The notes under the pieces are model-generated. The model did not search any database. It worked only from the letters and a program-made list of their open reading frames with translations, and had not been told where the DNA came from. The position numbers were made by a program, and so were the translations under genes. Below, piece after piece: positions 18,566 through 34,851 of a stretch of 54,166 nucleotides of DNA. Numbering within the stretch: position 1 is the stretch's first letter; every line of letters begins with the position of its first letter. The stretch is from Candidatus Kryptoniota bacterium (GTDB lineage: Bacteria > Bacteroidota > Ignavibacteria > Kryptoniales > JAKASW01), in NCBI GenBank assembly GCA_024641705.1, contig JAHECO010000024.1, forward strand, positions 1-54,166, written 5' to 3'.

Positions 18566-19624
18566 ATGAAGCCTGCCAAGGGAGCAGGTGGCGGACAGCA
18601 GGGGAATGTTAGAAAAAGGCTGACTATAAAGGACATTGCAGATGTCTTGTCGGTCACACCTGCCACAGTCTCAAAGGCGTTGCGGGACGGAAGCGATATA
18701 TCGCACGAGACCAAGGAGATGGTTAAAAAAGTTTCGCAGAAGTTGGGCTACAGGCCCAACTTCTTGGCTAGATCGCTTATAAATAATCGCAGTAGAATTA
18801 TAGGCGTACTCGTACCTGACCTTCGCATTTCATTCTTTTCTGAGGCGGTAAGAGGAATGTATGAGGAGGCGAGCAAGAAAGGCTACCAGTGTCTCTTTCT
18901 CGTTCATGATGAACTTGAGGCCAGAGAGAAAGAGAAGCTAGAATTCCTGTACGATATCCGTGCCGACGGAATATTACTGAACGCTGCCGGGGGTAAGATG
19001 AACTATCCTCTTCTCGAGAAGATGAACCAGGAAGGGATACGGATAGTATGCTGGGATAGGAGCTTGGACGATTTTGGTTTTAGATCGGTTAAAATAGATG
19101 ACTTTGAGGCGTCGTACAATTTGACATCCAAAATTATAAAAGAGGGAAGGAAGCATATAATGTTTCTGGGGCCGCACACGAAAGTATCTGTGCTGAAAGA
19201 TCGCTTCAAGGGGTATAGATCCGCCCTCAAGGAAAATGGAGTGCGTTACCGTCCGGAACTCATCGTGCAATCTTTTAGAAATGTTGAAGACAGTTATAAT
19301 AAGATACTGGAAGTTCTTCGCCAGAAAGTGCAGTTCGATGCAATTGTCAGTGTTGGTGGCTTGATTACTTACGGGGCGGGGAAAGCAATTCTTGAGTTCA
19401 AGAAGAGAGTCCCCGAGGACGTGATGATCGGTGAATTCGGAGACAACGACATAGTCTATAAACTCGGTGTACTATTTTACTCGGTGGTTCAGAATCCCCA
19501 GGAAATCGGTAAAGCTTCAACGGATCTTCTGATAAACATGATTGAATCCAGGAAACCGGATCAGGAATTCCTTAACATCGTTATCCACTCGGAAATTATG
19601 GAAAGGCGACCGATAGGTAAGTAA
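18566..19624 (+). CDS. LacI-family transcriptional regulator, probably of rhamnose/rhamnogalacturonan use
   Basis: The 352-residue protein has an N-terminal LacI HTH (about 16-65: TIKDIADVLSVTPATVSKAL, hinge RPNFLARSLINNRSRIIGVL). A periplasmic-binding-protein-like sensor domain runs from about 70 to the end (DLRISFFSEAVRGMYEEASK). It should repress or activate sugar genes in response to a sugar or sugar phosphate. The adjacent L-rhamnose operon and pectinolytic genes make rhamnose or an oligogalacturonide-type signal likely; that is inference. AGAGGG precedes the ATG. A strong promoter and palindrome upstream suggest autoregulation. The HTH start fits the family. Confidence 0.85.
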   Translation: MKPAKGAGGGQQGNVRKRLTIKDIADVLSVTPATVSKALRDGSDISHETKEMVKKVSQKLGYRPNFLARSLINNRSRIIGVLVPDLRISFFSEAVRGMYEEASKKGYQCLFLVHDELEAREKEKLEFLYDIRADGILLNAAGGKMNYPLLEKMNQEGIRIVCWDRSLDDFGFRSVKIDDFEASYNLTSKIIKEGRKHIMFLGPHTKVSVLKDRFKGYRSALKENGVRYRPELIVQSFRNVEDSYNKILEVLRQKVQFDAIVSVGGLITYGAGKAILEFKKRVPEDVMIGEFGDNDIVYKLGVLFYSVVQNPQEIGKASTDLLINMIESRKPDQEFLNIVIHSEIMERRPIGK

Positions 19625-19648
19625 GGCATTTTTCTTTGCCCTCTTACT

Positions 19649-19658
19649 TAAACGTTTA
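19649..19658. promoter_or_regulatory. Palindrome TAAACGTTTA upstream of rhaD, possible LacI-type site
   Basis: A perfect 10-bp palindrome with the central CG common in LacI-family operators lies 25 bp after the regulator gene and about 220 bp before rhaD. The 19625-19876 gap holds no other recognisable element. It differs from the palindrome at 18325-18344, so assignment to the same regulator is weak. Confidence 0.3.
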
Positions 19659-19876
19659 CTTAACCGCGATCCTGTTGGAATTGCCGTGATCTGGCCGGGA
19701 AAACGTGCGGGCTGCGCCCGGTTCCCTGCCGCGACTCATGTTCGTAAAACCTACGGGTTCCCTAAGGAGTTCGAGATACCGTTGAGCGGAGAGATTGTTG
19801 GGCTGCCGAGGATATGTTGTAGAACTTCTCTTATTTAAACTATATGTCATCACAAAATCAAATATAGATTGGCGAA

Positions 19877-22015
19877 ATGAAACAACCTGTAATTAAGTTT
19901 GATCATGTAAATTATTTGTGGGACGAAACGGAAGCATCCAAATCAAAAGGCGACGAAGTCGCTCTTCTTGTTTATCGTTCGAACCTACTCGGCTCGGATC
20001 TTCGGATAACAAATTACGGCGGAGGCAATACGTCCTGCAAAACCGCCGGCCTAAACCCGTTGACCGGTCAGAAAACAGAAGTCATGTGGGTAAAGGGATC
20101 GGGTGGGGACCTTGGGACGATGAAGAAAAGCGGATTGGCGGCACTGTACGTTGATCGGCTCAGGAATCTGAGAAATATTTATCGCGGCATCGAACACGAA
20201 GATGAAATGGTGCAACTCTTCAATCACTGTATCTTTGATCTGAACTCAAAAGCTCCTTCGATTGATACTCCGCTGCATGGTTTTCTTCCCTTCAATCACA
20301 TAGACCACATGCACCCGGATGCAGCTATTGCGATCGCCGCCTCAAAAGATGGCAAGAGAATTACGCAGGAGCTGTTCGGTGGATCTGTCGGCTGGATAGA
20401 ATGGCAGCGTCCCGGTTTCGATCTGGCTCTGAAGCTAAGACAATATGTCGATGAGAATCCCGGCATTCGTGGAGTGATACTGGCGTCCCACGGCCTATTT
20501 ACCTGGGGTGATTCATCATACGAGTGCTATGTTAATACTCTGGAGGTCATTGAAAGATGCGCCGGGTATATCGACGATAAGATAGCCGCAAAGCAGACAG
20601 TTTTCGGCGGGGCCAAAGTCAAGTCACTTTCGGGAGAAGAACGGTCGAAAAAAGCTGCACGGCTGGCGCCAGTCCTGCGTGGATACTGTTCTTCCCACGC
20701 GAGGATGGTCGGGCATTTCACGGATGAAGATAAAGTGCTTGAGTTTGTTAACTCGAAGGACCTCGACTGGCTGGCGAAGATGGGCACGAGCTGCCCCGAT
20801 CATTTCCTGCGTACGAAGATAAGTCCCCTAGTCCTGAATTCAGAAGTTACCGACGCCATAGACGATGACAAGGCACTAAAGGCAAAAATCGGTCCGCAGT
20901 TCGAGGCTTACAGGAGAATGTATTCACAATATTACAATGAGTGCAGGCATCCCGACAGCCCTGCAATGCGCGACCCCAATCCGGTGGTAATACTTTACCC
21001 CGGAGTGGGCATGTTCACTTTTGCGAAGGACAAGCAGACTGCCAGAGTCGCTGCGGAGTTCTACATCAATGCAATCAACGTGATGAGAGGTGCGGAAGCT
21101 ATCTCCGAATACGTTGCATTGCCGAGGCAGGAGGCTTTCAATATCGAGTACTGGCTTCTGGAAGAAGCAAAACTTGCAAGAAGGCCGAAGCCTACGGCCC
21201 TGAGCGGCAGAGTGGCTCTAGTGACCGGCGGCGCAGGCGGGATCGGGAAGGCTATTGCCGAGCGATTCGTGAGTGAAGGAGGCTGCGTGATCATCTGCGA
21301 CAATGATGCCGATCGTTTGAAGGGCGCCGTTGAAGAGTTCGAAAGTAAGTACGGCAGAGATTCCTTCGCCGGCGTTGAGTTCGACGTGGCCGGGGAACGT
21401 GATGTGGTGAAAGCGTTTGAATCGGCATCGCTCGCTTTCGGCGGAGTCGACATCGTAGTTAACTGCGCCGGGCTCTCTATCTCCAAACCTTTGGAAGAGC
21501 ATACGGAGAAGGACTGGGATTTGTTGTATGATGTCCTGGTGAAAGGACAGTTCCTCGTTACCCAAAAGGGCGTTGAGATCATGCGTAGGCAGAATTTGTC
21601 CGAAGGATCGTTCCGGGGCGGAGATATTCTCAACATGGTAAGCAAGAATGCGCTGGTGAGCGGGCCGAATAACGCAGCCTATGGATCAGCCAAGGCAGCC
21701 CAGTTGCATCTGAGCCGCCTGAACGCTGCGGAACTGGGGAAGGACAAAATCCGGGTCAATGTGGTGAACCCCGATGCGGTCATCGCCAACAGCAAGATTT
21801 GGAGCGGGGCATGGGCGGAAGGACGCGCGAAAGCCTATGGGATTACGGTCGAAGAGCTGCCGGCGTATTATGCGAAGCGCACACTGCTGAACGAAATCAT
21901 AAACCCTGAAGATATCGCAAATGCCTGCTATGTCTTTGTGGGCGGTCTCCTGAATAAATCCACAGGCAACGTGCTCAACGTCGATGGCGGACTGCCGACT
22001 GCGTTTGTAAGATAG
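19877..22015 (+). CDS. rhaD: Bifunctional rhamnulose-1-phosphate aldolase / short-chain dehydrogenase
   Basis: A 712-residue fusion. The class II aldolase/adducin domain (about 20-420) contains the metal-binding-type segments PLHGFLPFNHIDHMHPDA and LASHGLFTWG. It splits L-rhamnulose-1-phosphate to DHAP and L-lactaldehyde. The SDR domain (about 435-712) has the NAD motif TGGAGGIGKA and the YxxxK active site in AAYGSAKAA, and probably handles lactaldehyde. Such fusions are known from many bacterial rhamnose operons. The ATG at 19877 follows ATTGGCGAA, and length fits the fused family. The rhamnulokinase gene follows after 25 bp. The exact redox reaction of the SDR part is inferred. Confidence 0.9.
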   Translation: MKQPVIKFDHVNYLWDETEASKSKGDEVALLVYRSNLLGSDLRITNYGGGNTSCKTAGLNPLTGQKTEVMWVKGSGGDLGTMKKSGLAALYVDRLRNLRNIYRGIEHEDEMVQLFNHCIFDLNSKAPSIDTPLHGFLPFNHIDHMHPDAAIAIAASKDGKRITQELFGGSVGWIEWQRPGFDLALKLRQYVDENPGIRGVILASHGLFTWGDSSYECYVNTLEVIERCAGYIDDKIAAKQTVFGGAKVKSLSGEERSKKAARLAPVLRGYCSSHARMVGHFTDEDKVLEFVNSKDLDWLAKMGTSCPDHFLRTKISPLVLNSEVTDAIDDDKALKAKIGPQFEAYRRMYSQYYNECRHPDSPAMRDPNPVVILYPGVGMFTFAKDKQTARVAAEFYINAINVMRGAEAISEYVALPRQEAFNIEYWLLEEAKLARRPKPTALSGRVALVTGGAGGIGKAIAERFVSEGGCVIICDNDADRLKGAVEEFESKYGRDSFAGVEFDVAGERDVVKAFESASLAFGGVDIVVNCAGLSISKPLEEHTEKDWDLLYDVLVKGQFLVTQKGVEIMRRQNLSEGSFRGGDILNMVSKNALVSGPNNAAYGSAKAAQLHLSRLNAAELGKDKIRVNVVNPDAVIANSKIWSGAWAEGRAKAYGITVEELPAYYAKRTLLNEIINPEDIANACYVFVGGLLNKSTGNVLNVDGGLPTAFVR

Positions 22016-22040: not shown

Positions 22041-23546
22041 ATGACTACTGAAAAGAAGTTCATTGCTCTCGACCTGGGTGCCGAGACCGGCCGGTGTGTC
22101 GTCGCGACGCTGAAAGATCACAAAATCGAATTGAACGAAGTCTATCGGTTCAACACCCATGCCATAAGGTACGAGAAAGGTTTTCATTGGGACATTCTGC
22201 ACATATACGAGGAGGTACTGACGGGATTGGCAAAAGCGCGGGCTGCTTTCGGTTCACATTTCGACGGCATCGGCGTAGACACGTGGGGAGTCGATTATGT
22301 CCTGCTTGACCCCGAAGGAAGAATAATCGGTTATCCGTATCATTACCGCGACGATCGAACAGACGGCGTTATGGAGGAAGCCTTCAATGTGGTCCGGAAG
22401 GAGAAGATTTACGAGAGGACAGGTATCCAGTTTGCTCAATTCAACACGGTATTTCAGCTTCTGTCCGAGAAGAAAAGAAAATCGAGTTTTCTTACGTCGG
22501 CCGATAAGATGCTGCTTCTCCCTGACTTTATGAATTACTTACTCTCAGGCGAAATGAAGGCGGAATTTACCATAGCCTCGACAACCGGGCTGGCAGATCC
22601 ACTTGAAAGAGACTGGGCATGGGACCTGATCGCGAATTTCCAGCTGCCGGATAGACTATTTTCCGAAATGGTAGAACCCGGTACGATCATAGGAACTTTG
22701 CTTCCATCGATTGCAAAAAAAACGGGTTTGGATCCGGATGTACGGGTGATCGCGACCGCCGGCCATGATACCGCATCGGCCATTGTTTCGGTACCGTCTG
22801 ATGGGAAAAGTAACTGGGCATTCCTGAGCTCCGGCACGTGGTCACTTATGGGGGTGGAGCTGAGGAAGCCGTCCCTCACTCCCCGGGCGATGGAATACAA
22901 TTTCACCAACGAGGGAGGTGCAGCAGGTACGACACGCCTCCTGAAAAACATAACAGGTCTGTGGCCGCTGCAGGAGTGCAGGAGATACTGGTCCGGGAAA
23001 TCTGTGGAGTATAGTTACTCGGCCTTAACCGACATGGCCAGAAAAGAAGGGTCTGCCAATGCCTGGATCGATTTGAATGATCCGAGATTTTTAAAGCCCG
23101 ATGATATGCCGGAGAAGATTCAGGCGTTTCTGGGCAAATCGGGGCAATCGACAAAACCCGGCATCGGATATATTGTGAATGTCATCTTGGAAAGTCTAGC
23201 ATTCAGCTATAGAATAGTAAAGAAGGAACTTGAAGACATTACCGAAAGAAGAGCAGACCGGATACATGTTGTCGGGGGAGGAACACAGAATGGGCTGCTC
23301 ATGCAACTGACGGCAGATGCCGTTGGATGTACCGTCATAGCCGGCCCGATCGAAGGCGCGGTTGTCGGCAATGTCGGAGTACAGGCGTTGGCAATCGGTG
23401 CGATTTCAAGCGTTGACGAATGGCGGCACATCGTTGCGGACTCTTCTCAGCTTCAGGTGTACGAGCCAAGTGATGGCCGCTATTTCGATGAAAATGAGGA
23501 AGCCTTCCGTGCAGTATTATCCGAAGGATCTTTTGAAGAAGATTAA
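22041..23546 (+). CDS. rhaB: L-rhamnulokinase
   Basis: This 501-residue FGGY-family carbohydrate kinase phosphorylates L-rhamnulose to L-rhamnulose-1-phosphate. It opens with the phosphate-binding loop FIALDLGAETGRCVVA. It carries GVDTWGVDYVLLD and YHYRDDRTDG typical of RhaB, the ATP-site ATAGHDTASAIVSVP with the catalytic aspartate, and the C-terminal VVGGGTQNGLLMQLTADA. Length is normal. It lies between the aldolase fusion and the LutC-like gene, in the same direction with short gaps, so it belongs to the rha operon. Confidence 0.93.
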   Translation: MTTEKKFIALDLGAETGRCVVATLKDHKIELNEVYRFNTHAIRYEKGFHWDILHIYEEVLTGLAKARAAFGSHFDGIGVDTWGVDYVLLDPEGRIIGYPYHYRDDRTDGVMEEAFNVVRKEKIYERTGIQFAQFNTVFQLLSEKKRKSSFLTSADKMLLLPDFMNYLLSGEMKAEFTIASTTGLADPLERDWAWDLIANFQLPDRLFSEMVEPGTIIGTLLPSIAKKTGLDPDVRVIATAGHDTASAIVSVPSDGKSNWAFLSSGTWSLMGVELRKPSLTPRAMEYNFTNEGGAAGTTRLLKNITGLWPLQECRRYWSGKSVEYSYSALTDMARKEGSANAWIDLNDPRFLKPDDMPEKIQAFLGKSGQSTKPGIGYIVNVILESLAFSYRIVKKELEDITERRADRIHVVGGGTQNGLLMQLTADAVGCTVIAGPIEGAVVGNVGVQALAIGAISSVDEWRHIVADSSQLQVYEPSDGRYFDENEEAFRAVLSEGSFEED

Positions 23547-23563: not shown

Positions 23564-24121
23564 TTGGCCCGGTTGAATATGCCGAACAGCGTTGAGCGTG
23601 AACTGACAGTGCGGTTCCTCGAGTCGGCCAAGGCAGCAGGAGCAACCGTGGAGACAATTCAAAAGAGTCCACAAGAACTTAATGCTGCACTTCAAAAAGC
23701 TACGTCCGGCGATGAATCAATCTTGCTGGCAGAGCCGGATTACCTGAGCCCGGCGCTCTTCGATCTTTTTCTTTTAAACAAGAGGGTGGTCACGAAACCG
23801 ACGAAGGAGCAGTTGTCAGCCATCACAACAGGTGTGACTGATGCATTCTGTGCCGTCGCCAGCACAGGCTCCGTGTGCGTGTCCGTTTCGAGAAATCTGG
23901 GAAGTCCAATGAGTCTGCTGACTCGAAGGCACATCGCCGTCGTTGACGCCGGCACGATTGTTCCCAGGCCCAGAGATATTTTTTCCGGTGAGAGCGCTGC
24001 ACCGGACGGCTTGAAGCGAAGTTTCTCGTTCATTACCGGACCGAGCGCCACGGCGGACATGGGTCCTCTCGTGGTCGGCGTTCACAGTCCGGGGAAATTG
24101 CATATCATAGTCTTGGAATAA
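23564..24121 (+). CDS. lutC: LutC-like LUD-domain protein
   Basis: This 185-residue LUD-domain protein (YkgG/LutC type) has SITTGVTDAFCAVASTGSVCV-like and 'GPSATADMG' signatures near the C-terminus. With LutA and LutB it forms the iron-sulfur L-lactate dehydrogenase complex that oxidises L-lactate to pyruvate. The frame opens with TTG at 23564 (GGAAGA 7 bases upstream); an ATG at 23579 is an alternative start. It follows rhaB by 17 bp and precedes the LutB-LutA fusion by 4 bp. Its place in a rhamnose operon suggests that it handles lactate made from lactaldehyde. Confidence 0.8.
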   Translation: MARLNMPNSVERELTVRFLESAKAAGATVETIQKSPQELNAALQKATSGDESILLAEPDYLSPALFDLFLLNKRVVTKPTKEQLSAITTGVTDAFCAVASTGSVCVSVSRNLGSPMSLLTRRHIAVVDAGTIVPRPRDIFSGESAAPDGLKRSFSFITGPSATADMGPLVVGVHSPGKLHIIVLE

Positions 24122-24125
24122 TTGC

Positions 24126-26342
24126 ATGGGAAACATTAACGATTATAAGATCAGTCCAAGACAGGTAGCCGACAAATCGAGCGAGGGATCCCTTTATGAT
24201 GCTATCAGGCTGGCTCTCGATGTCGAAACCGATGCATTGCGCCTTAATACGCAGACATTCAACAGGAACCGGTACAAGGCGGTACAAAAGATAGATGATT
24301 ACGATGCCCTGAAGCAGCGAGCCCGGGAAATAAAGGAGGAATCGATCGAAAATCTGCCAGAACTTGTGGGTAGGATCACGAGGACAATCGAGTCCCGCGG
24401 CGGGCATGTTTTTCTCGCAAACTCCAAGGCGGAAGCAACCGACTACATAACAAAAGTCTGCTCATCGCATCGGGCCAAACTGGTTGTAAAGGCTAAGTCA
24501 ATTACCAGTGAAGAAATCGAATTAAACCATGCGTTAATAAACACGGGGATAGAAGTTGCGGAAACCGACCTTGCCGAGTTTATTCTGCAGGTATCAAAGG
24601 AACAACCGTCGCACATCGTAGCTCCGGCGATTCACAGGAGCAGGGAAAGTATATCGGAGCTGTTCAAGAGAAACTTCGAGACCGACCTGCCGCTCGATAC
24701 CGGTGAAGAGCTTACGCGATTTGCACGAGATATTCTAAGAAAGAAATTTCTTTCCGCTGATGTCGGTATCACGGGTGCGAATCTGATTGCAGCCGAAGAA
24801 GGCGCAATCCTCCTGGTGGAAAGCGAAGGGAACATCCGGTTTACGACTCAACTTCCCGCCGTCCATATTGCCATCGCAGGGATAGAAAAGATTATTCAGA
24901 GAAAGAAAGACTTCGGGACGTTCATAGAACTCCTCGCAGCAAGCGGGACAGGCCAGTCCCTGACATCGTATACGAATATATTGGAGCCGCCGATCGAATT
25001 GCCGGTTCTGAACCTGAACGGCAGGTCCGACGAGAAACGGGAATTCTATCTGGTTCTTCTCGACAACGGCCGGATGAGGATGCGGCAGGACGAGGATTTG
25101 AAAGAAGCGCTTTACTGCATAAGGTGCAGCGCATGCATGAATTCTTGTGCGAACTTTCAGGCGGTCGGAGGCCATGCCTTCGGCGGCGAGTGCTATACAG
25201 GCGGCATTGGAGGCGCGTGGACGCTCGGAACAAGCGGCAGTCTGGAAAAGGCAAGATTCGCTGAATTGTGTACAGGCTGCTCTAGGTGCGTTCCTAATTG
25301 TCCCGTCAAAATCGATATCCCGGGATTGAATACCGTTATCAAGAACCGTTTGACGAAGGCTGCCGGAGGTCCTTCGATGCAACAGCGTTTCTTTGGGCAC
25401 TTCGCTGAGCTGGCTCGCCTTGCGGAGGCAGCGCCTGGAATCTCAAACAGGATTAACAATCTTTCCGTCAGCAGAGCACTGATGGAAAACTTTGCGGGCA
25501 TCGACAGGCGGCGCGCAATTCCTCCTTTTGCGGAAAAGACTCTGGTTGAGGAGTATCGAAAGTACCGCCGGAACGGTAATCTGATGAACAAGAACGGTTC
25601 ATTGAGGGGCATAATTCTTTTTGCCGACCTGTTCACCAACTACAACAATCCGGAAGTCGGAATGGCGACCGTAAGAGTGTTCGACAAGTTGGGACTGCCG
25701 ATCACGCTCAGCAAGCTCTTCGATGACGGCAGGGGACTTCTGTCGCAGGGACTCATCGTGAAGGCTGAAGAGAAGGCCCGCAAAGTTGCCGCCTACCTTG
25801 GAAAGTTGATCGACGAAGGCAACGACATTATCGTTGCCGAGCCGAGCGTCCTCTCGATGTTCAGACGGGACTACGGGAGACTGCTGACCGATGAAGGACT
25901 TTCTAAGAAGATTGCGGAGCATTCATTCGATCCGATCGAATACCTGAACGGGTTGGTCATCAACGGTCGTCTGGAACTTATGAGTCAGCTGAAAAAGGGC
26001 CTCTCGTCCCGTGATCACGTTTTCTATCACGCTCATTGCCAGCTGAAAACCATCGGAGGAGGCAACGTCGCTCCGGAATTTTTCCGGCGGACCGGACTCA
26101 CGGTAGAAGTATCGAACGTCGAATGCTGCGGGATGGCCGGAAGTTTTGGATACAAGAAACAGTACTTTGACATCAGCAAGAGAGTCGGTGACGATTTGAT
26201 AAGCCAGATAAATGCGGCATTTTCAGCCGACGAGAATACGGTAGTACTGGCGAACGGCATATCGTGCCGCGAGCAAATCGGCTCGGAGATCTCCGCTGCC
26301 GTCTATCATCCGATCCAATTCCTGGAAACTCTCCTCGTTTGA
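24126..26342 (+). CDS. LutB-LutA fusion: LUD domain, two 4Fe-4S clusters and CCG domain
   Basis: The 738-residue protein joins what are usually two subunits. The LutB part has a LUD domain (about 60-300; VGITGANLIAAEEGAILLVE) and two 4Fe-4S cysteine clusters, CIRCSACMNSC (about 330) and CTGCSRCVPNCP (about 380). The LutA part (about 490-738) carries the cysteine-rich CCG motifs HAHCQLKTIGG and VECCGMAGSFG. With LutC it should oxidise L-lactate to pyruvate and pass electrons to an acceptor. No signal peptide, so cytoplasmic or membrane-associated. Four bases separate it from lutC. The fusion order B then A is visible; the activity is inferred from family. Confidence 0.88.
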   Translation: MGNINDYKISPRQVADKSSEGSLYDAIRLALDVETDALRLNTQTFNRNRYKAVQKIDDYDALKQRAREIKEESIENLPELVGRITRTIESRGGHVFLANSKAEATDYITKVCSSHRAKLVVKAKSITSEEIELNHALINTGIEVAETDLAEFILQVSKEQPSHIVAPAIHRSRESISELFKRNFETDLPLDTGEELTRFARDILRKKFLSADVGITGANLIAAEEGAILLVESEGNIRFTTQLPAVHIAIAGIEKIIQRKKDFGTFIELLAASGTGQSLTSYTNILEPPIELPVLNLNGRSDEKREFYLVLLDNGRMRMRQDEDLKEALYCIRCSACMNSCANFQAVGGHAFGGECYTGGIGGAWTLGTSGSLEKARFAELCTGCSRCVPNCPVKIDIPGLNTVIKNRLTKAAGGPSMQQRFFGHFAELARLAEAAPGISNRINNLSVSRALMENFAGIDRRRAIPPFAEKTLVEEYRKYRRNGNLMNKNGSLRGIILFADLFTNYNNPEVGMATVRVFDKLGLPITLSKLFDDGRGLLSQGLIVKAEEKARKVAAYLGKLIDEGNDIIVAEPSVLSMFRRDYGRLLTDEGLSKKIAEHSFDPIEYLNGLVINGRLELMSQLKKGLSSRDHVFYHAHCQLKTIGGGNVAPEFFRRTGLTVEVSNVECCGMAGSFGYKKQYFDISKRVGDDLISQINAAFSADENTVVLANGISCREQIGSEISAAVYHPIQFLETLLV

Positions 26343-26362: not shown

Positions 26363-26677
26363 GTGAAGAGATTTGCCTTTAAGATGAAATTGAAAAGCGG
26401 GTGCAGAGAAGAGTACATCCGCAGGCACGAGGCCATCTGGCCCGAGCTGAAGGCCATCCTGAGCGCGTCCGGTGTCCGGGATTACACGATTTACCTGGAT
26501 CCGGAGACGGACACGCTCTTTGCGGTCCAGATCCAGGAAGGGGAGAAATCTTCCCAGGATCTGGGGGAAAATCCTGTTGTTTGCCGGTGGTGGCAGTACA
26601 TGGCGGACATTATGGAGACCAACCCAGACTTCTCTCCTGTGTCTCAGCCGCTGGAAGAAGTGTTCCACATGGACTGA
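26363..26677 (+). CDS. rhaM: L-rhamnose mutarotase
   Basis: This 104-residue dimeric alpha/beta barrel protein interconverts alpha- and beta-L-rhamnose so that the isomerase gets its preferred anomer. Family features are RFAFKMKLKSG, EEYIRRHEAIWPEL, GVRDYTIYLD and the C-terminal WWQYMADIM. Length is exactly that of the family. The GTG start at 26363 gives the conserved N-terminus; the next ATG (26384) would cut into it. It is the fifth gene of the rha operon, 20 bp after the Lut fusion. Confidence 0.93.
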   Translation: MKRFAFKMKLKSGCREEYIRRHEAIWPELKAILSASGVRDYTIYLDPETDTLFAVQIQEGEKSSQDLGENPVVCRWWQYMADIMETNPDFSPVSQPLEEVFHMD

Positions 26678-26874: not shown

Positions 26875-28035
26875 ATGAGTCCCAACCCCATTCTCGGTGT
26901 TTTCTTTCACTGGCTCGGGGGCTTTGCCTCGGGCAGTTTTTATGTACCGTTCAAAGCGGTCAAGAAATGGGCATGGGAGGTCTATTGGCTCCTGGGAGGA
27001 GTCTTCAGCTGGCTGATCGCTCCTTGGGTACTTGCATTAATACTGGTTCCGCACCTGACCCAGATATTGGGAGAGCAACCTTTCGGCGTTCTTGGGTGGA
27101 CATTCTTCTGGGGGATACTATGGGGATTCGGTGGTCTGACTTACGGCCTTACCATGCGATATCTCGGATTGTCCCTGGGAACAGGCATTATTCTAGGCCT
27201 TACCGCTTTATTCGGTACCTATCTGCCTCCGATATTTGACGGCACTATCGGAGCCAAACTTCATACGATCGCCGGACAGGTCATTCTCATCGGTTCGGTA
27301 TTCGCTTTGATGGGTATCGCACTCACGGCTGCAGCCGGTCTGTCCAAAGAAAGGGAGATGGATGAGGAGCAGAAGCGTAAGACAATCCAGGAGTTTAATT
27401 TACGAAAAGGTATTCTGGTAGCGATATTTTCCGGCGTAATGAGTTCATGCTTTGCTTTCGGGCTCGATTCAGCTACTCCCATAGCCGCCACAGCCCTCCA
27501 TTATGGCGCTGCCGAGATATGGACTGGCTTACCGAAAATAATAGTAATTACCGCGGGCGGCTTCGTCACAAACTTAGTGTGGTGTTTGTATCTGCTGAAA
27601 AAGAATCGAACATTCGGTGAGTACTTCGGTCGCGTAACACCTGTGCCGGACGACTCTGGTCTTGAGCTTGCAGGGAATTCTGTCGCCGCGCTTGATCCCA
27701 ATGACCCACCTGTCGCTGCTTCTGTCCAAAAGGACAAAGTTCCTTTGCTCGGGAATTATCTCTTGAGCGCTCTGGCGGGCACAACATGGTATTTTCAATT
27801 CTTCTTCTATACTATGGGCGAGTCACAAATGGGGAACTATAAATTCTCGAGCTGGACTATCCACATGGCAAGCATAATTATTTTCGGCTCTTTGTGGGGA
27901 ATCTTTCTCAAGGAATGGAAGGACACCAGTGGCCTGTCCAAGTTTCTGCTCGGTGTTGCTCTGTTCACGCTTATCGTATCAACAATAGTGATCGGCTATG
28001 GAAACTTGCTGGGGTTACAACTTGGAGGACACTAA
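26875..28035 (+). CDS. rhaT: L-rhamnose-proton symporter
   Basis: This 386-residue integral membrane protein has about ten hydrophobic segments. The RhaT hallmark N-terminus PNPILGVFFHWLGGFASGSFYVPFKAVKKWAWE is followed by SWLIAPW, 'FFWGILWGFGGLTYGLTMRYLG' and LGLTALFGTYLPP. It takes up L-rhamnose across the inner membrane in symport with protons. E. coli RhaT is about 344 residues, so this one is slightly longer, with an extended loop around residues 255-285. It sits between rhaM and rhaA. Confidence 0.92.
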   Translation: MSPNPILGVFFHWLGGFASGSFYVPFKAVKKWAWEVYWLLGGVFSWLIAPWVLALILVPHLTQILGEQPFGVLGWTFFWGILWGFGGLTYGLTMRYLGLSLGTGIILGLTALFGTYLPPIFDGTIGAKLHTIAGQVILIGSVFALMGIALTAAAGLSKEREMDEEQKRKTIQEFNLRKGILVAIFSGVMSSCFAFGLDSATPIAATALHYGAAEIWTGLPKIIVITAGGFVTNLVWCLYLLKKNRTFGEYFGRVTPVPDDSGLELAGNSVAALDPNDPPVAASVQKDKVPLLGNYLLSALAGTTWYFQFFFYTMGESQMGNYKFSSWTIHMASIIIFGSLWGIFLKEWKDTSGLSKFLLGVALFTLIVSTIVIGYGNLLGLQLGGH

Positions 28036-28061: not shown

Positions 28062-29351
28062 ATGAGAAACAGAAAACGTATTGAAGAGATATATCAATAT
28101 GCAAAAGAGGAGTACATGGCTCTGGGTGTAGACACAGACGAAGCCCTGAAGAGATTGAACACAATAGAGATCAGCCTCCACTGCTGGCAGGCCGACGACG
28201 TCGCGGGTTTCGAAAGTCCGGATGCCGAGCTGCAAGGCGGCGGCATTCAGGTTACGGGCAATTATCCCGGGAGAGCAAGAACGATCGGACAGTTGAGGGA
28301 GGATATTGAAAAGGTGATGAGCCTCCTCCCCGGCAAGCAGCGCCTGAATCTTCACGCGAGTTACGGGGATTTCGGCGGGGAGAAGGTCGATCGCCACGAG
28401 ATCGAGGTCAAGCACTTTCAAAGCTGGATAGACTGGGCGAAAAAATTCGGCATCGGAATCGACTTCAATCCTACATGTTTTTCTCATCCTTCTGCCGACG
28501 ACGGTTTCACGCTGTCGAGCAAGAACGAAGTACGGCGCAAGTTCTGGATCGAGCACGTCAAGCGGACCAGAAAAATAGCAGCTGAGATGGGAAAGCAGCT
28601 GGGGTCTCCCTGTATTAACAATATCTGGATTCCCGACGGCTCGAAAGACTTGCCGGTCGACCGCTATTCACATCGGGTGTTGCTGAAAAATTCTCTCGAT
28701 GAAATCTTTTCGGAAGATTATCCGAAGGAATACCTCATCGATTCTCTCGAAGGAAAACTCTTCGGCCTCGGCTCCGAGGCTATGACGGTCGGTTCACATG
28801 AGTTCTATTTCGGTTATGCGGTTAAGAACGACAAAATCGTTTGCATAGATACCGGGCACTACCACCCTACCGAGCAGCCGGGCGACAAGATCTCAGCTAT
28901 GCTGCAATTTCTCGACGGGCTCATGCTTCACATAAGCCGCGGTGTGCGGTGGGACAGCGACCATGTGACGATATTTAACGACGATGTGCAGCTTCTCGCC
29001 CAGGAGATAGTCCGGGCCGATGCGCTGGATCGCGTGCACATAGGCCTCGATTACTTCGATGCCAGCATAAATCGGATCGGAGCTTACGTCGTCGGCGCGC
29101 GTGCCGTCCAGGCGGCTTTCCTCTTTGCACTCTTGGAGCCTGCACACAAGTTGAGGGAATTTGAGGAGGCGGGAAAGAATTTCGAACGCCTCGCTTTCCT
29201 CGAGTTGCTGAAGACAAAACCGTTCGGAGCGGTATACGACTACTATTGCCTCACGAGGGACGTGCCGGTAAGTGAAGATTATGTCAAAGAAATTGAAAGA
29301 TATGAGAGGGAAGTCCTCGGGGGAAGGCTTTCTCTCAGGAGCGCCGTGTAG
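28062..29351 (+). CDS. rhaA: L-rhamnose isomerase
   Basis: This 429-residue TIM-barrel enzyme converts L-rhamnose to L-rhamnulose. It follows E. coli-type RhaA closely: ISLHCWQADDVAGFE, GNYPGRARTIGQLR, FNPTCFSHPSADDGFTLS, NIWIPDGSKDLPVDR, LFGLGSEAMTVGSHEFYFGY, DTGHYHPTE, RWDSDHV and IGLDYFDASINRI. Metal-binding acidic and histidine residues in these blocks are conserved. It ends the rha gene run; the next 440 bases are non-coding. Together with rhaB, rhaD and the Lut proteins it completes rhamnose to DHAP and pyruvate. Confidence 0.95.
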   Translation: MRNRKRIEEIYQYAKEEYMALGVDTDEALKRLNTIEISLHCWQADDVAGFESPDAELQGGGIQVTGNYPGRARTIGQLREDIEKVMSLLPGKQRLNLHASYGDFGGEKVDRHEIEVKHFQSWIDWAKKFGIGIDFNPTCFSHPSADDGFTLSSKNEVRRKFWIEHVKRTRKIAAEMGKQLGSPCINNIWIPDGSKDLPVDRYSHRVLLKNSLDEIFSEDYPKEYLIDSLEGKLFGLGSEAMTVGSHEFYFGYAVKNDKIVCIDTGHYHPTEQPGDKISAMLQFLDGLMLHISRGVRWDSDHVTIFNDDVQLLAQEIVRADALDRVHIGLDYFDASINRIGAYVVGARAVQAAFLFALLEPAHKLREFEEAGKNFERLAFLELLKTKPFGAVYDYYCLTRDVPVSEDYVKEIERYEREVLGGRLSLRSAV

Positions 29352-29790
29352 CACTCTTTTGCATACATTCCCGAATCTTATTATGTTAAAAATGGTTTCT
29401 TTATGATATTTTAACCGGAACCTTGTGAGATGCAGCTGACAACCTTCCAACCCGTAAAACTCCCACTCCTGACGGTTACCCCATACTCCTGAAAGCGGCT
29501 GCTTAAATCGCCGAGCTGTCGGCTGAAAGAATGCGATTCACGAAAGCCCGAACAGAGTCGCGTCTGTGACGCAATAGGAAATTCCAAAGTACACTTGTTT
29601 ATTCGCCTATTGATCTCGATTAGATAAAAGAGGGGTCTTCCTTTTACCTGGCTCCTCTGTTAACTGGATGAGAGTTCGAACATGGGACCGCTGGCACGTC
29701 AACAGGATTCGAAAACGCCCGCCATTGTTTGTGAATCAAGGACCATCCATTTCTAAACTATTAGAAGTCATCAAACCAGGAGGTTTTGCA
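29352..29790. other. Intergenic region between rhaA and the TonB receptor gene
   Basis: About 440 bases without a convincing gene. A 7-bp inverted pair CAATAGG (29572-29578) / CCTATTG (29606-29612) is present, and AGGAGG at 29778-29783 serves the receptor gene. The frame of the receptor stays open upstream to 29668, but that part lacks a signal peptide. A promoter for the receptor must lie here; none stood out. Confidence 0.4.
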
Positions 29791-32778
29791 ATGAGGTTAA
29801 GGACTATTTTGGGCCTTTTGTGGTGCTTAAGCTGCTTGATCGTTCCTGCAGGCACCGCGTATTCTCAGGCTGTAGAAACCGGGACACTCGCTGGTACCGT
29901 AGTAGATGCCGCCAATAAACAGCCGCTTCCTGCTGCGACAATTCTGGTAGTCGGTACCAACAATGGGACCGTTACCGATCTGGAAGGGAGGTTCGTAATC
30001 AATGGACTTGAAAGCGGCAAGTACAAAATCAAAGTATCCTATGTGGGGTACAAAGATAAGGAAGTCGAAGTAGCAGTGAAGCCGAATGTCGTCAGCAAGG
30101 TCGAAGTAGCCTTGGAGGAGACGGCTATTAGCGGAAAAGAGGTCGTGGTAACCGCTCAACGTCAAGGTCAAGAACAGGCAATTACTCAGGAGCTTTCTTC
30201 AAATACCATCGTGAACATCGTCACCCCCGATCGTATCAGAGAGAACCCCGATGCAAATGCTGCTGAGGCCGTGGGGCGGCTTCCGGGAATATCTTTGGTG
30301 AGGAGTGGCGGCGTAGGGGAAAACCTCATAATTCGCGGAATGGCTCCTTCCTATACCGTGGTTGAATTAAATGGTATTCAAATACCTTCAAACTCCGTGG
30401 ACACTCGCGGCGTTAACATATCCGGACTATCCATGTACAGTCTGGACGGGATCAGCGTTTTCAAGTCAATCACCCCGGATATGGAAGCAAACGCTGTAGC
30501 CGGCGCGGTGAATCTGAAGTTGGCGCACGCCCCCGACTCGCCGTCTCTCAACATTATTGCAGAACCAGGGTACAATCATCAGAATAATTATTTCGGCAAC
30601 TACACATTCAACCTGGATGCAAGCCGGCGGTTCTTCAGTGATAAACTCGGCGTGAGGTTAGATATAGATGCCGAGGGAGCCAACAGAGGGACACAGACTT
30701 TAGGCGGTTCATACACGGTTAATTCCAATATAAACGGCGGAGTCGGATTTGAGCCGGTGGATCTTACCGAAGCTTCTCTTAATAGCATTTCCAATTTTAA
30801 CAAAAAGCAGGCCGGTTCTCTGGTCATAGATTGGCGGTTCTCGCGGCTTTCCACTCTTACTCTTTACAACTTCTTCTCAGCCAGCGGTGCCCAGAAGTCA
30901 ACATTTACTAAAGAGTTCCAGCCCTCCTATTACAATTTCTACGATGCAACTCTGGACAACAACGGTAGGAACCTCCTCTATAACGGCTCTTTGCAGGGTG
31001 AGAGCAATATAGGCGCTGTCGACCTGGACTATGGTCTCGCATACTCACAGATACACAATTACGATCCCTATGTCAAGAACTGGCAATTTCGGTGGCTGAG
31101 CGTGGCTTATCCGCCTGCACTTACCACAGATTCAGCGTTAGCGGTTCTGCCCGTCAATGGATTTATAAATGATAATCTTGATTCCGGGAGCACCTCTATA
31201 TTGCAGTCGATTGCGTTGATACATATGGGCTACAACTCAACTGACGTTCTGCAAAGAAACGGTCAGGGTTATCTCAACGTCAAACTACCCTTTAACCTGA
31301 CGAACGATGTCAGCGGATATCTCAAAGGAGGCCTCGAGTACAAGAACACTCGTCGGGTTGTGAGCTATTATTCAGCTGATCAGCCGTTTACTGCATTCGG
31401 GAATGCCCAGAGCGTTTTTCCATGGCTGACGCAATCCACCGCAACCCCTCAACCCTCTGGGTATTCGTTTGTCTCGGGAGACATTAACAAGTTCCTTGAC
31501 GGACAATACAACTTCGGGTGGAACATCGACTTTTCGAGACTGAATAACTACTGGAATTGGTGGAATACGTTTTCCAACAATGTTATTAAGGGTGATTCCG
31601 TTATCAAGACTGTCGGAAGCAACCTACTTATCGGATTTGTACCGGACTTCTACAACAGTTCAATTCACAATCAGGGTATCACTGACGATTACTATGCAGC
31701 TTATTTGATGGCGGTGCTAAAATTAGGTGACGTAGTATCGTTCATCCCGGGTGCCCGTTATGAGAAAGAGACAGAGGCGCTTATCGGTCACCAGGTTTAT
31801 AATCTCGCGCAAACCTATTCGCTCTATATCCCAACTACGCAGGTTAACGCTTCTCCGAGTAATGAGTTTATCCTTCCCAATTTTCACTTGAAGATAAAGC
31901 CTCTGGACTGGCTTGCATTTCAAGCTGCATATACAAAGACTCTGGGACGTCCGGATTATCAAGAAATTGTGCCCAATGTTTACATCAACAGTAGTGAAGA
32001 ACCGTTCACATATCGGGTTGGGAATCCGAATCTGCAACCTGAACAGTGGTCGAATTACGATTTGCAGGCAGCTGTTTTTAGCAACGAGGTGGGCCTCTTT
32101 TCGATCGATGGATTTTATAAAGTAGTGAAAAACAAGATTTGGAGCAGGACATATACCAGGGTTCCCGGAGACCCGGTGGTCCCGGGTTTCGGCCCCAATG
32201 ATCTCGTGAATGTTACGGAAACGGTGAACCACACCAACCCGGTGTACGTGAAAGGCGCAGAGGTGAATTGGCAGACAAATTTCTGGTACCTGCCCGAGCC
32301 CTTCTCCTACTTTACTCTGGACCTAAACTACACTCTCATGACTTCGCACACTTTGTATCCGTCGGAAAGATTATACACCGTTGTTACGATTGATAGCGTC
32401 ACTCACAGACCGAAAGCGCAAGAGATAAGGGTGGATTCATCGGTAACAGGGAGAATGCTTGATCAACCGAACAGCATAGTCAATGCTTCTCTGGGCTTTG
32501 AATGGAGTGGTTTGAACATTTGGGTGTCATATCAATACAACGGCGATATCCTGACATCATGGTCAAGCCAGCCAGAGTTATCCGGCAGGCAGAGTTCCTA
32601 CCAAAGCTGGGACATGCAGGCTACGTACCAGCTTCCGATCAGAGGGCTGAAACTGAGATGCGACGTGGCAAACATAAACAACGCCCGGCAGGTGTCCACT
32701 CTCGTCTCGGGATCGAGACCCACCTATATCGAAAGTTACGGGTGGACTTCGGACTTCGGCTTTATGTACAGCTTCTGA
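29791..32778 (+). CDS. TonB-dependent outer-membrane receptor with carboxypeptidase-regulatory-like domain
   Basis: From the ATG at 29791 (AGGAGGTTTTGCA upstream) the protein has 995 residues. The signal peptide runs to about residue 27 (GTAYSQ), followed by a CarboxypepD_reg-like domain (about 33-115: GTLAGTVVDAANKQPLPAAT, YVGYKDKEVEV). A plug domain (about 130-250: AEAVGRLPGISLVRSGGVGE, IIRGMAPSYTVVELNGIQIP) precedes a 22-strand barrel ending in YGWTSDFGFMYSF with the terminal aromatic residue. It should import an oligosaccharide through the outer membrane with TonB energy. No SusD-like gene lies beside it. Its place between the rha operon and the pectin enzymes suggests rhamnogalacturonan fragments as cargo. 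Confidence 0.9.
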   Translation: MRLRTILGLLWCLSCLIVPAGTAYSQAVETGTLAGTVVDAANKQPLPAATILVVGTNNGTVTDLEGRFVINGLESGKYKIKVSYVGYKDKEVEVAVKPNVVSKVEVALEETAISGKEVVVTAQRQGQEQAITQELSSNTIVNIVTPDRIRENPDANAAEAVGRLPGISLVRSGGVGENLIIRGMAPSYTVVELNGIQIPSNSVDTRGVNISGLSMYSLDGISVFKSITPDMEANAVAGAVNLKLAHAPDSPSLNIIAEPGYNHQNNYFGNYTFNLDASRRFFSDKLGVRLDIDAEGANRGTQTLGGSYTVNSNINGGVGFEPVDLTEASLNSISNFNKKQAGSLVIDWRFSRLSTLTLYNFFSASGAQKSTFTKEFQPSYYNFYDATLDNNGRNLLYNGSLQGESNIGAVDLDYGLAYSQIHNYDPYVKNWQFRWLSVAYPPALTTDSALAVLPVNGFINDNLDSGSTSILQSIALIHMGYNSTDVLQRNGQGYLNVKLPFNLTNDVSGYLKGGLEYKNTRRVVSYYSADQPFTAFGNAQSVFPWLTQSTATPQPSGYSFVSGDINKFLDGQYNFGWNIDFSRLNNYWNWWNTFSNNVIKGDSVIKTVGSNLLIGFVPDFYNSSIHNQGITDDYYAAYLMAVLKLGDVVSFIPGARYEKETEALIGHQVYNLAQTYSLYIPTTQVNASPSNEFILPNFHLKIKPLDWLAFQAAYTKTLGRPDYQEIVPNVYINSSEEPFTYRVGNPNLQPEQWSNYDLQAAVFSNEVGLFSIDGFYKVVKNKIWSRTYTRVPGDPVVPGFGPNDLVNVTETVNHTNPVYVKGAEVNWQTNFWYLPEPFSYFTLDLNYTLMTSHTLYPSERLYTVVTIDSVTHRPKAQEIRVDSSVTGRMLDQPNSIVNASLGFEWSGLNIWVSYQYNGDILTSWSSQPELSGRQSSYQSWDMQATYQLPIRGLKLRCDVANINNARQVSTLVSGSRPTYIESYGWTSDFGFMYSF

Positions 32779-33108
32779 GGTGTCTGGCAAACATGGTATT
32801 TGAAGGAGGTGATGCTTTTTATGAGGGTACAGTGAGAATCGGGCTTTGGCGGGGACATGCCCGAACAGTAGCGATCTTCAGGGGCGTGTTCGTGTCATTG
32901 ACCTCGATTCCTAACTCGAACGTTATCTCTTAAACAAGGCTTTCCCCCTGCAGTTCTCGCAACGGCGGAAAGCATAACGGATATGCGCAAGATGAAGGTT
33001 AAATGAGCAAAGGAGGAAACGGCATTTTAAATGTATTCCATCCTACTACCTTCTGCATTTTTTCAGCGTAACTTAACCCGCACAACAACCTTAAAGGAGT
33101 ACGATGTC
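32779..33108. other. Intergenic region after the TonB receptor
   Basis: About 330 bases with no convincing gene. A perfect Shine-Dalgarno sequence AAGGAGGTGAT (32803-32813) stands 7 bases before an ATG at 32821 that opens only a four-codon frame ending at 32835. The rest shows nothing recognisable apart from AAAGGAG serving the next gene. Confidence 0.4.
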
Positions 33109-34851
33109 ATGAGAAATTTCAAACTCTTATTGGCAGCCTCACTGGTCACCTTCCTTATTTCCGCCAATGGGAAAGCCCAACCGAAAGTGATCAATGTTGC
33201 ACCAGGCTACGGTTCCTTGAATGACTCCGTAGCGGCGGAAGGATCAGCTACCTATGTGTTGCAGGCCGGTCAATGGTACGGCCTCAACGCTGTACTGAAC
33301 ACTCCGACCACGGGTCCTGTGTCCATAATCGGACAAACCCCGGCACCGGGAAAGATGCCCGCCATACTTCAAACCGGCAATACATCCAGCGGTACGACGT
33401 TCACTCAAATGTTCAAGACATACAGCGATTTTACGTTAAAGAATGTCTTTCTTGTGAACGCGGATCTAAATGACGGCTTGGGAGCAGGCATACTGTTCGC
33501 AGAGGGACCCGGTAGAATTAACTTTGATTCAGTAACTGCAGACCCTGTAGGAAGCCATTACTTTTTGGAATCCTACGTCAAGAGCTACAAAGACGTGAAT
33601 ATATTTGTGACAAACTCTCTGCTTATGAACAGGACACTGTCAACAACCGTAGGTGACGGATATTTCTTTGCTAATGTCATATGGGATACTCTCTACTTTG
33701 AGAATAACACCGTAGTTCACTGCGGAAATCAATTCTACAAAGGACCAAATGCCGAGAATGATACTGTGGGCTTCAATTGGATTAACCATAATACGTTCCT
33801 CTTCCTCAAAACAAACTTCAAGTCAGACTTTGGTGATTCCAATACGTACATAACGAATAACCTTTTTTGGATGGGTGGGTACGTCCCGGAAAGGATTGCT
33901 GAGGGACACCCAGATGCTTATGTAGGTAACAGTATACACGGTCTTTTCCTCGACGATACGCTGTTATATGAGACGGTGCCCAGCGAAAGAAAACACTTCA
34001 TAGAGTACAATAGTAACTATCGTGCTCCAGGAATATGGGACCTGGCGACCTGGGTTAACAGTCAGACATGGAACCTTACTACCTTTATTCCCGAGTTCAT
34101 CCCGTCGATCGCATGGTTTGATTCGTCCAGAGAGACAAGGATGTATAATACGAAGAGCGCTTTCCCCAACTTCTACTGCACGAATAACATGTCCGATACC
34201 AGCGGGCAAAACACCACTTTCGATCCGCAGTTCACCGACTCCAAGATTTATTCTCTGACTGACTCTTGTGTTATCTGGGCGGATAGCGTCGTATATCAAA
34301 TCTACGGCGGTGCAACGACGAACTCAGCACTATGGCCGGACATTTTCTATCGGGTCGACACAAGCTTTAGTTACCCGACTACCTGGCCCCGCTTCGACGG
34401 AGCTTACACAAATTCCATGTTCACGACTGCTTCGATCGGCGGGTTGCCGATCGGCGACCTGAACTGGTTCCCGAATCAGAAGAAGATTTGGAAAGAATAT
34501 CAGCCAAAGATCATGCAGCATATCTTGGCTGAAGACCAAACACAGATGAACGTAACCGCCGTACAGGATGCAAACAGCCACGTCCCGGCCAAGTTCACGC
34601 TGCTGCAGAACTACCCGAATCCCTTCAACCCCACCACGGAGATCAAGTTCAGTATTGCCCGAACCGGCATGGTCTCGTTGAAGGTATATAACGTGCTGGG
34701 CCAGGAAGTTGCAACTTTGATTGACGGACGCCAGAGCGCGGGAAGTCACTTCGTAAACTTCAATGCTTCGAGGTTTGCAAGCGGAGTCTACTTCTACACT
34801 CTGCGGCAGAACGGCAATTCGATCACTAAGAAGATGCTTCTCCTGAAGTAA
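33109..34851 (+). CDS. Secreted parallel beta-helix protein with T9SS sorting domain
   Basis: The ATG at 33109 (AAAGGAGTACGATGTC upstream) gives 580 residues. The signal peptide ends near ISANGKAQ. The body (about 25-490) shows the rhythm of a right-handed parallel beta-helix of the pectate-lyase-like class (for example 'DFTLKNVFLVNADLNDG', 'VNIFVTNSLLMN', 'LYFENNTVVHCGNQFYKG'). A type IX sorting domain (about 500-580: LLQNYPNPFNPTTEIKF, ASGVYFYTL) ends the protein. It is surface-exposed or released. The fold and location suggest a pectin-binding or pectin-cleaving role, but no lyase active site was recognised. Confidence 0.75.
   Translation: MRNFKLLLAASLVTFLISANGKAQPKVINVAPGYGSLNDSVAAEGSATYVLQAGQWYGLNAVLNTPTTGPVSIIGQTPAPGKMPAILQTGNTSSGTTFTQMFKTYSDFTLKNVFLVNADLNDGLGAGILFAEGPGRINFDSVTADPVGSHYFLESYVKSYKDVNIFVTNSLLMNRTLSTTVGDGYFFANVIWDTLYFENNTVVHCGNQFYKGPNAENDTVGFNWINHNTFLFLKTNFKSDFGDSNTYITNNLFWMGGYVPERIAEGHPDAYVGNSIHGLFLDDTLLYETVPSERKHFIEYNSNYRAPGIWDLATWVNSQTWNLTTFIPEFIPSIAWFDSSRETRMYNTKSAFPNFYCTNNMSDTSGQNTTFDPQFTDSKIYSLTDSCVIWADSVVYQIYGGATTNSALWPDIFYRVDTSFSYPTTWPRFDGAYTNSMFTTASIGGLPIGDLNWFPNQKKIWKEYQPKIMQHILAEDQTQMNVTAVQDANSHVPAKFTLLQNYPNPFNPTTEIKFSIARTGMVSLKVYNVLGQEVATLIDGRQSAGSHFVNFNASRFASGVYFYTLRQNGNSITKKMLLLK

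Follow-up and report, generated by a model that had tools for sequence, protein, structure and literature searches.

Genomic context of the gene pair

The DNA studied here (the window) is a stretch of 54,166 nucleotides, contig JAHECO010000024.1 (C87 in our numbering) of a Candidatus Kryptoniota genome (GCA_024641705.1; 4.62 Mb in 95 contigs). It carries a rhamnose gene cluster in which two adjacent genes, one for a small LutC-like protein and one for a 738-residue fusion of LutB with LutA, lie between rhaB and rhaM. Both open reading frames are present as an earlier note on this DNA, made without database searches, had described them. The genes of the locus are listed below (window coordinates, strand, assignment).

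18566-19624, +, LacI-family regulator, likely the rhamnose regulator (PF00356/PF13407)
19877-22015, +, RhaEW, a fusion of rhamnulose-1-phosphate aldolase with a short-chain dehydrogenase/reductase (SDR)-type lactaldehyde dehydrogenase (NF006191, 1310.7 bits, exceeding the equivalog cut-off of 1240; TIGR02632, 940.9 bits, cut-off 567.75)
22041-23546, +, rhamnulokinase RhaB (TIGR02627, 457.5 bits, below the cut-off of 527.95; PF00370/PF02782)
23564-24121, +, LutC/LudC-like small LUD subunit, 185 aa (PF02589, 61 bits; phmmer match to LutC 2g40_A, E-value 1.8e-4)
24126-26342, +, LutB-LutA (LudB-type) fusion, 738 aa (LUD, Fer4_8 and NCBIfam LdhH/LutB matches)
26363-26677, +, L-rhamnose mutarotase RhaM (TIGR02625, 109.9 bits, cut-off 99.6)
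26875-28035, +, L-rhamnose/H+ symporter RhaT (NF010024, 493.1 bits, cut-off 468)
28062-29351, +, L-rhamnose isomerase RhaA (NF002203, 643.1 bits, cut-off 572; TIGR01748, 593.6 bits, cut-off 584.95)
29668-34851, after RhaA, TonB-dependent receptor, then a protein with a type IX secretion system (T9SS) tail

The gaps between rhaB, the LutC-like gene, the fusion gene and rhaM are 17, 4 and 20 bases, and all four genes are on the + strand; judging from these short gaps, they are likely to be transcribed together. The LutC-like gene starts with TTG, and its first in-frame ATG (at 23579) is a possible start that would give a protein of 180 aa. The earlier note had also stated that the cluster has no separate lactaldehyde dehydrogenase gene. 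A cluster without lactaldehyde oxidation is rejected: the activity is assigned to the RhaW half of RhaEW, according to its NF006191 match and to PMC3870299 (this and the other papers below are cited for the passages that bear on these genes), where both activities of RhaEW are described in vitro for Chloroflexus and Bacillus and RhaEW is also recorded from Bacteroidetes.

Domains and predicted fold of the fusion protein

The following features of the fusion protein (all on the + strand, window coordinates) were identified by family search, from the sequence itself or by alignment.

24372-24992, +, LUD domain, residues 83-289 (PF02589 positions 3-164 of 189, 129 bits)
25116-25301, +, two CxxCxxCxxxC [4Fe-4S] motifs, C331-C341 and C382-C392 (sequence)
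25566-25901, +, first CCG half (CCG1), about residues 481-592, its four cluster cysteines gone (alignment)
26037-26267, +, second CCG half (CCG2), with C638, C667, C668 and C714 all present (alignment)

The two iron-sulfur motifs lie in a dicluster ferredoxin domain (Fer4_8, residues 328-396, 34.5 bits). The LutA half (the C-terminal 250 residues) has no match to PF02754, the CCG family, at an E-value of 0.001 or lower, and a paralogue of the fusion on contig C35 of the same genome barely reaches this family (21.6 bits, cut-off 20.6). A profile–profile comparison (hhalign) of the LutA half with an alignment of LutA from this genome and Escherichia coli YkgE gave 97.8% over 225 columns. The AlphaFold (AF2) model of residues 481-738, built from a four-sequence alignment, has a predicted local distance difference test score (pLDDT) of 81.1, and its closest fold in the PDB is LutA (9a6l_A, which is itself an integrative model; Z 20.0, root mean square deviation 3.3 over 224), followed by EtfD of M. 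smegmatis (Z 18.1) and chain B of Hdr complexes (Z 16.1-16.6). We did not use the full-length AlphaFold model, which was poor (three-sequence alignment, mean pLDDT 41.5), and a PDB sequence search found no relative of the whole fusion at an E-value of 0.01 or lower. Since the profile comparison and the predicted fold both point to LutA, with its two alpha/beta CCG repeats, the 738-aa protein is a genuine LutB-LutA fusion. It is no chance product, because it is found full-length at 24 bacterial loci of the genomes searched and at 12 haloarchaeal loci.

The earlier note had called attention to the joining of two proteins that are normally separate. The fusion is real, but it is not unusual in itself: the LdhH/LudB architecture is known in Desulfovibrio and in haloarchaea, and LUD + Fer4_8 + CCG is among the published LUD domain architectures (PMC3924224). 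The three modules (small LUD subunit, LUD-Fe-S protein and tandem-CCG protein with the LutA fold) are also those of LutABC/LldEFG/YkgEFG, which however consist of three chains, with both CCG sites in LutA.

A lost CCG site and the class of the fusion

All 36 fusions that we aligned (24 bacterial and 12 haloarchaeal) have none of the four CCG1 cysteines and all four of the CCG2 cysteines, so the fusion does not show the two four-cysteine sites of PF02754. The CCG1 cysteines are present in LutA, YkgE and GlpC, and an LdhH-class fusion from Fusobacterium holds all eight CCG cysteines. The two [4Fe-4S] motifs do not vary among the 35 sequences of our first alignment (34 fusions and the Fusobacterium row). 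The emptied CCG1 region is itself conserved: D501, G512, G535, R536, S540, Q541, G542, E572 and P573 are found in 34 out of 34 fusions.

In its build the window protein agrees with LdhH: a single chain joins LUD, a dicluster Fe-S domain and tandem CCG-fold halves, and a small LUD partner is encoded at 23564-24121. Its score against the LdhH family NF045670 is 446 bits over almost the full length, below the curated cut-off of 800, and against TIGR00273 (LutB/LldF) it is 354 bits over residues 37-417, below the cut-off of 444.8. All seven fusions that were scored reach 433-460 bits with NF045670, versus 926 bits for a 645-aa partial translation of the fusion from Fusobacterium. Because of these low scores and the loss of the CCG1 cysteines, plain LdhH identity is rejected. 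The window protein has the marks of the LudBC type (a full-length fused relative, an adjoining small LUD gene and no CCG1 site), and the alignments characterize it as a CCG1-less, LudB-like variant distinct from LdhH proper.

Desulfovibrio DVU3033/DVU3032, of the LdhH family, have the same division into a large LUD/Fe-S/CCG subunit and a small LUD subunit, but their genes are in a lactate operon; in D. vulgaris, deletion of DVU3032-33 slows growth on L-lactate and lowers L-lactate dehydrogenase activity, and the family is called non-flavin (PMC4481167). The comparison with LdhH in respect of the CCG sites is through the Fusobacterium member; DVU3033 itself is not in our alignment. The passages cited here on RhaEW, LudBC, DVU3032-33, the verrucomicrobial LutABC operon, PVM-like microcompartments and LUD architectures do not mention the lost CCG1 site, nor do those of PMC8217296, PMC11958385 and PMC6955870, which contribute nothing decisive; no search was aimed at that point. 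E. coli YdiJ (D-2-hydroxyglutarate dehydrogenase) has also lost its C-terminal CCG1 cysteines and has a related motif (QDPFTSYYD), but is only 22.6% identical over 390 aligned positions; we take it to be an FAD enzyme without a LUD domain.

Distribution in Bacteria and association with deoxyhexose genes

The fusion was found in eight out of 13 genomes of the genus (10 loci) and in 19 out of 391 genomes of the class sample (21 loci, E-value of 1e-100 or lower; these include the eight genomes and 10 loci of the genus). A phylum-wide sample of 395 genomes yielded six with the fusion; one of these, G338, is not a member of the class, and in G338's own class the fusion is found in three out of 244 genomes. 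Outside the class count, an Ignavibacteriales metagenome-assembled genome (locus L016) has a fusion 66% identical to that of the window; there rhaB and a LacI gene flank the pair, and rhaM, rhaT and rhaA are further on.

At all 21 loci of the class sample there is at least one deoxyhexose-type gene nearby in the stretches examined (isomerase, kinase, mutarotase, RhaT, RhaEW or class II aldolase). When loci with nothing of this kind but a class II aldolase are left aside, the count is 20, the exception being G526, whose aldolase is in a microcompartment locus. As a control we took the 13 canonical LutB loci of the genus, some of them on short contigs (3.5 and 8.4 kb): such genes are near one of them and not near the other 12. 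That one (G011, contig C39) is from a genome with no fusion; its LutABC genes lie about 0.6 kb from, and divergent to, the symporter gene that starts a fucose cluster (L093/L108), possibly a natural replacement of the fusion.

RhaEW itself was found at 32 loci in 30 of the 391 genomes, and the fusion lies beside it at 10 of them. The earlier note had proposed a survey of the fusion together with rhaD-SDR fusions: the two do occur side by side, but a strict link between them is rejected.

The homologues of the LacI-family regulator (57-82% identity, tblastn) occur at eight other fusion loci. We found no LacI operator common to the window and its relatives, only single palindromes, except in L016, where two near-identical ones (3965-3982 and 5166-5183, with GTTTTCGAAAACCTT in common) lie upstream of the LacI gene and of a TonB-receptor gene and are likely an operator. 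The window has a different palindrome before rhaEW, TACTTAAACGTTTACTTA at 19645-19662. Homologues of the TonB-dependent receptor and of the T9SS-tailed protein are found together beside the fusion in six other loci of the class; these two proteins are perhaps an uptake part for rhamnosides. In one relative (G002, contig C50, L025/L057) the fusion gene has one in-frame TAG, due to decay or to sequencing error.

Haloarchaeal relatives

Among plasmid records, 57 match the query over 80% or more of its length; of these, 56 are haloarchaeal and one is from Fusobacterium (H82, an unannotated record whose context is not readable). The haloarchaeal proteins are 41.5-45.6% identical to the window protein over 96-98% of its length. 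We viewed 12 haloarchaeal contexts: H4 and H20 were chosen by eye, and from H26 to H81 one record in five was taken, with H46 (which comes from the organism of H20) and H76 (unannotated) passed over. Named rhamnose genes are found in two (H4, H66), a suggestive rhamnose-like set in two (H51, H56), other sugar or sugar-acid genes in three (H41, H71, H81), an L-lactate permease in two (H20, H36), an FAD/Fe-S protein in one (H31) and nothing telling in two (H26, H61). Among the corresponding stretches L082 and L102 are rhamnose clusters, and in L083 and L097 an L-lactate permease adjoins the pair. A restriction of the fusion to sugar contexts is thus rejected for haloarchaea. The earlier note had held that its proposal would be refuted if the fusion occurred mainly outside sugar loci; the class loci, all linked with deoxyhexose genes, do not show this, and the haloarchaeal plasmids are mixed, with rhamnose genes in some cases and an L-lactate permease in others.

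The haloarchaeal counterpart is LudBC (HVO_1692/HVO_1693): a 733-aa LudB with LudC, linked with rhamnose. In Hfx. volcanii deletion of LudBC impairs growth on rhamnose, and LudBC is named there as a possible L-lactate dehydrogenase (PMC8305020, citing Reinhardt 2019). The 12 plasmid-borne relatives in our alignment, which do not include HVO_1692 itself, share the loss of the CCG1 cysteines. Unlike the window, the haloarchaeal rhamnose clusters that we saw carry genes of the non-phosphorylated route.

The same pair beside three degradation routes

The first route, through RhaEW, is that of the window and of most loci in the genus. A second LutC-fusion pair of the same genome, on C35 (L048:602-19104; fusion 66% identical), belongs to an L-fucose operon with FucI, a kinase, a symporter, a RhaEW paralogue (80% identical), LutC, the fusion, a GH20, two GH29 (alpha-L-fucosidase family) and a GH35. 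In the tree the fucose-operon copies form one clade (99/99).

The second route is through a microcompartment. Seven out of the 21 class loci (L070, L072, L073, L075, L076, L078 and L079, from related families) carry, in addition to the pair, homologues of shell genes together with class II aldolase, aldehyde dehydrogenase and acetate kinase, the gene set of the Planctomycetes–Verrucomicrobia microcompartment (PVM)-like type; in L076 and L070 these assignments are confirmed in part by Pfam. A phosphate acyltransferase (PTAC/PduL) has a Pfam match in L076 and homologues at three of the seven loci in the stretches examined. The window has no homologue of a shell gene. PVM-like microcompartments have been described, including that of Melioribacter (PMC4207490), and the verrucomicrobial loci have been drawn as leading from lactaldehyde through lactyl-CoA and lactyl-phosphate to L-lactate (PMC8857213).

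For the third route, G338 has FucP and a 2,4-didehydro-3-deoxy-L-rhamnonate hydrolase (354.8 bits, below the cut-off of 500) beside the pair, and G809 has homologues of these genes in the same order; in the third genome of this clade (G796) the contig, 4.1 kb, is too short to judge the context. All three routes (RhaEW, microcompartment and diketo-hydrolase) are expected to yield L-lactate. In the tree the bacterial G338 clusters with the haloarchaea (96/91), and G547, a microcompartment locus, is sister to G562, a RhaEW locus (100/100). Because these two are sisters, the fusion appears to have been retained while the route changed. Owing to the very long branch of the Fusobacterium row, the root of the tree is unreliable.

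Proposed function

We infer that the pair is very probably a two-subunit, flavin-free L-lactate:acceptor oxidoreductase of the LUD type and the LudBC kind, which is produced along with the enzymes of the rhamnose pathway and converts lactate to pyruvate. RhaT, RhaM, RhaA, RhaB and RhaEW would convert L-rhamnose to dihydroxyacetone phosphate and L-lactate, the lactaldehyde being oxidised with NAD+ by the RhaW half; LutC and the fusion would take over the L-lactate and oxidise it, within the cell, to pyruvate. The electrons would travel by way of the two [4Fe-4S] clusters and of the one CCG cluster site that is left, and their acceptor is probably the quinone pool. The earlier note had placed both lactaldehyde and lactate oxidation to pyruvate with these genes in one transcript: lactate to pyruvate remains the most likely step, but the lactaldehyde step belongs to RhaW. 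A Pfam search found no PF02652 lactate permease in this genome (other transporter families were not searched), which fits lactate being made inside the cell; PF01070 (the flavin mononucleotide-dependent LldD) has two partial matches only, to positions 207-347 and 208-305 of 350.

This function is well supported yet known in kind. Rodionova 2013 (PMC3870299) placed lldD or lldEFG in RhaR regulons with RhaEW in Actinomycetales and Rhodobacterales and so already proposed rhamnose degradation extended to pyruvate, but the passages cited mention neither a fusion nor a fucose operon, nor any connection with microcompartments. In a verrucomicrobial genome LutABC is in an operon with a rhamnulokinase gene (PMC11596606). 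New here are the association with deoxyhexose genes throughout the class, the use of the same pair in three routes and a subclass that lacks CCG1.

Three observations weigh against the proposed function. Canonical LutABC genes are present as well in the genome of the window, which might thus do without the fusion. We viewed 16 of the 22 RhaEW loci without a fusion: at 15 of them no LUD gene lies in the part examined, and at one there is LutABC, although some of these stretches stop at contig ends. One cluster site present in LutA, YkgE, GlpC and the Fusobacterium LdhH is missing from the LutA half, where the transfer of electrons may therefore not be the same.

Altered chemistry is another conceivable consequence of the vacated CCG1 site, and some haloarchaeal pairs are near other sugar or sugar-acid genes, away from named rhamnose genes; the pair might then oxidise another 2-hydroxy compound of the pathway (e.g. 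a sugar acid or lactaldehyde). We consider this unlikely, since the common product of the three routes is, from pathway knowledge, L-lactate, the adjoining permease in Halobacterium and Halolamina is one for L-lactate, and the rhamnose growth defect and listing of LudBC (PMC8305020) point the same way. That the pair is a passenger that adds little, with lactate excreted or handled by the canonical LutABC, would agree with the presence of LutABC in all 13 genus genomes searched, with the many RhaEW loci without a LUD neighbour and with the in-frame TAG in one relative; however, all 12 cluster cysteines are preserved over deep divergence and the locus keeps the pair through a change of lactaldehyde route (the G547/G562 sisters), and we regard it as quite improbable. 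A true LdhH with two CCG clusters, merely located in a sugar operon, is scarcely credible: NF045670 is the best NCBIfam match, but the scores and the CCG1 loss given above contradict it.

Significance

To return to L-lactate oxidation by the pair, we tentatively suggest, as a possibility with the odds rather against it, that fusions without CCG1 make up a class of their own among LUD lactate dehydrogenases, spread across bacteria and haloarchaea, in which the emptied CCG1 half became a conserved site (D501, G535-R536, S540-Q541-G542, E572-P573) that may bind lactate, a cofactor or quinone, the pair serving as a plug-in for any 6-deoxyhexose route that ends in L-lactate. To our knowledge, the catalytic site and the electron path of the LutABC family are not settled. 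If the suggestion is true, the conserved emptied site would mark where the chemistry happens in a flavin-free enzyme family. For work on the LutABC family, the loss of CCG1 by an entire subclass is a natural experiment and supplies concrete residues for mutation. For the organisms, one likely lactate-oxidising module has been kept over three chemically different routes of rhamnose and fucose degradation, and its presence predicts that the lactate half of the sugar is burned, rather than excreted or turned into propanediol.

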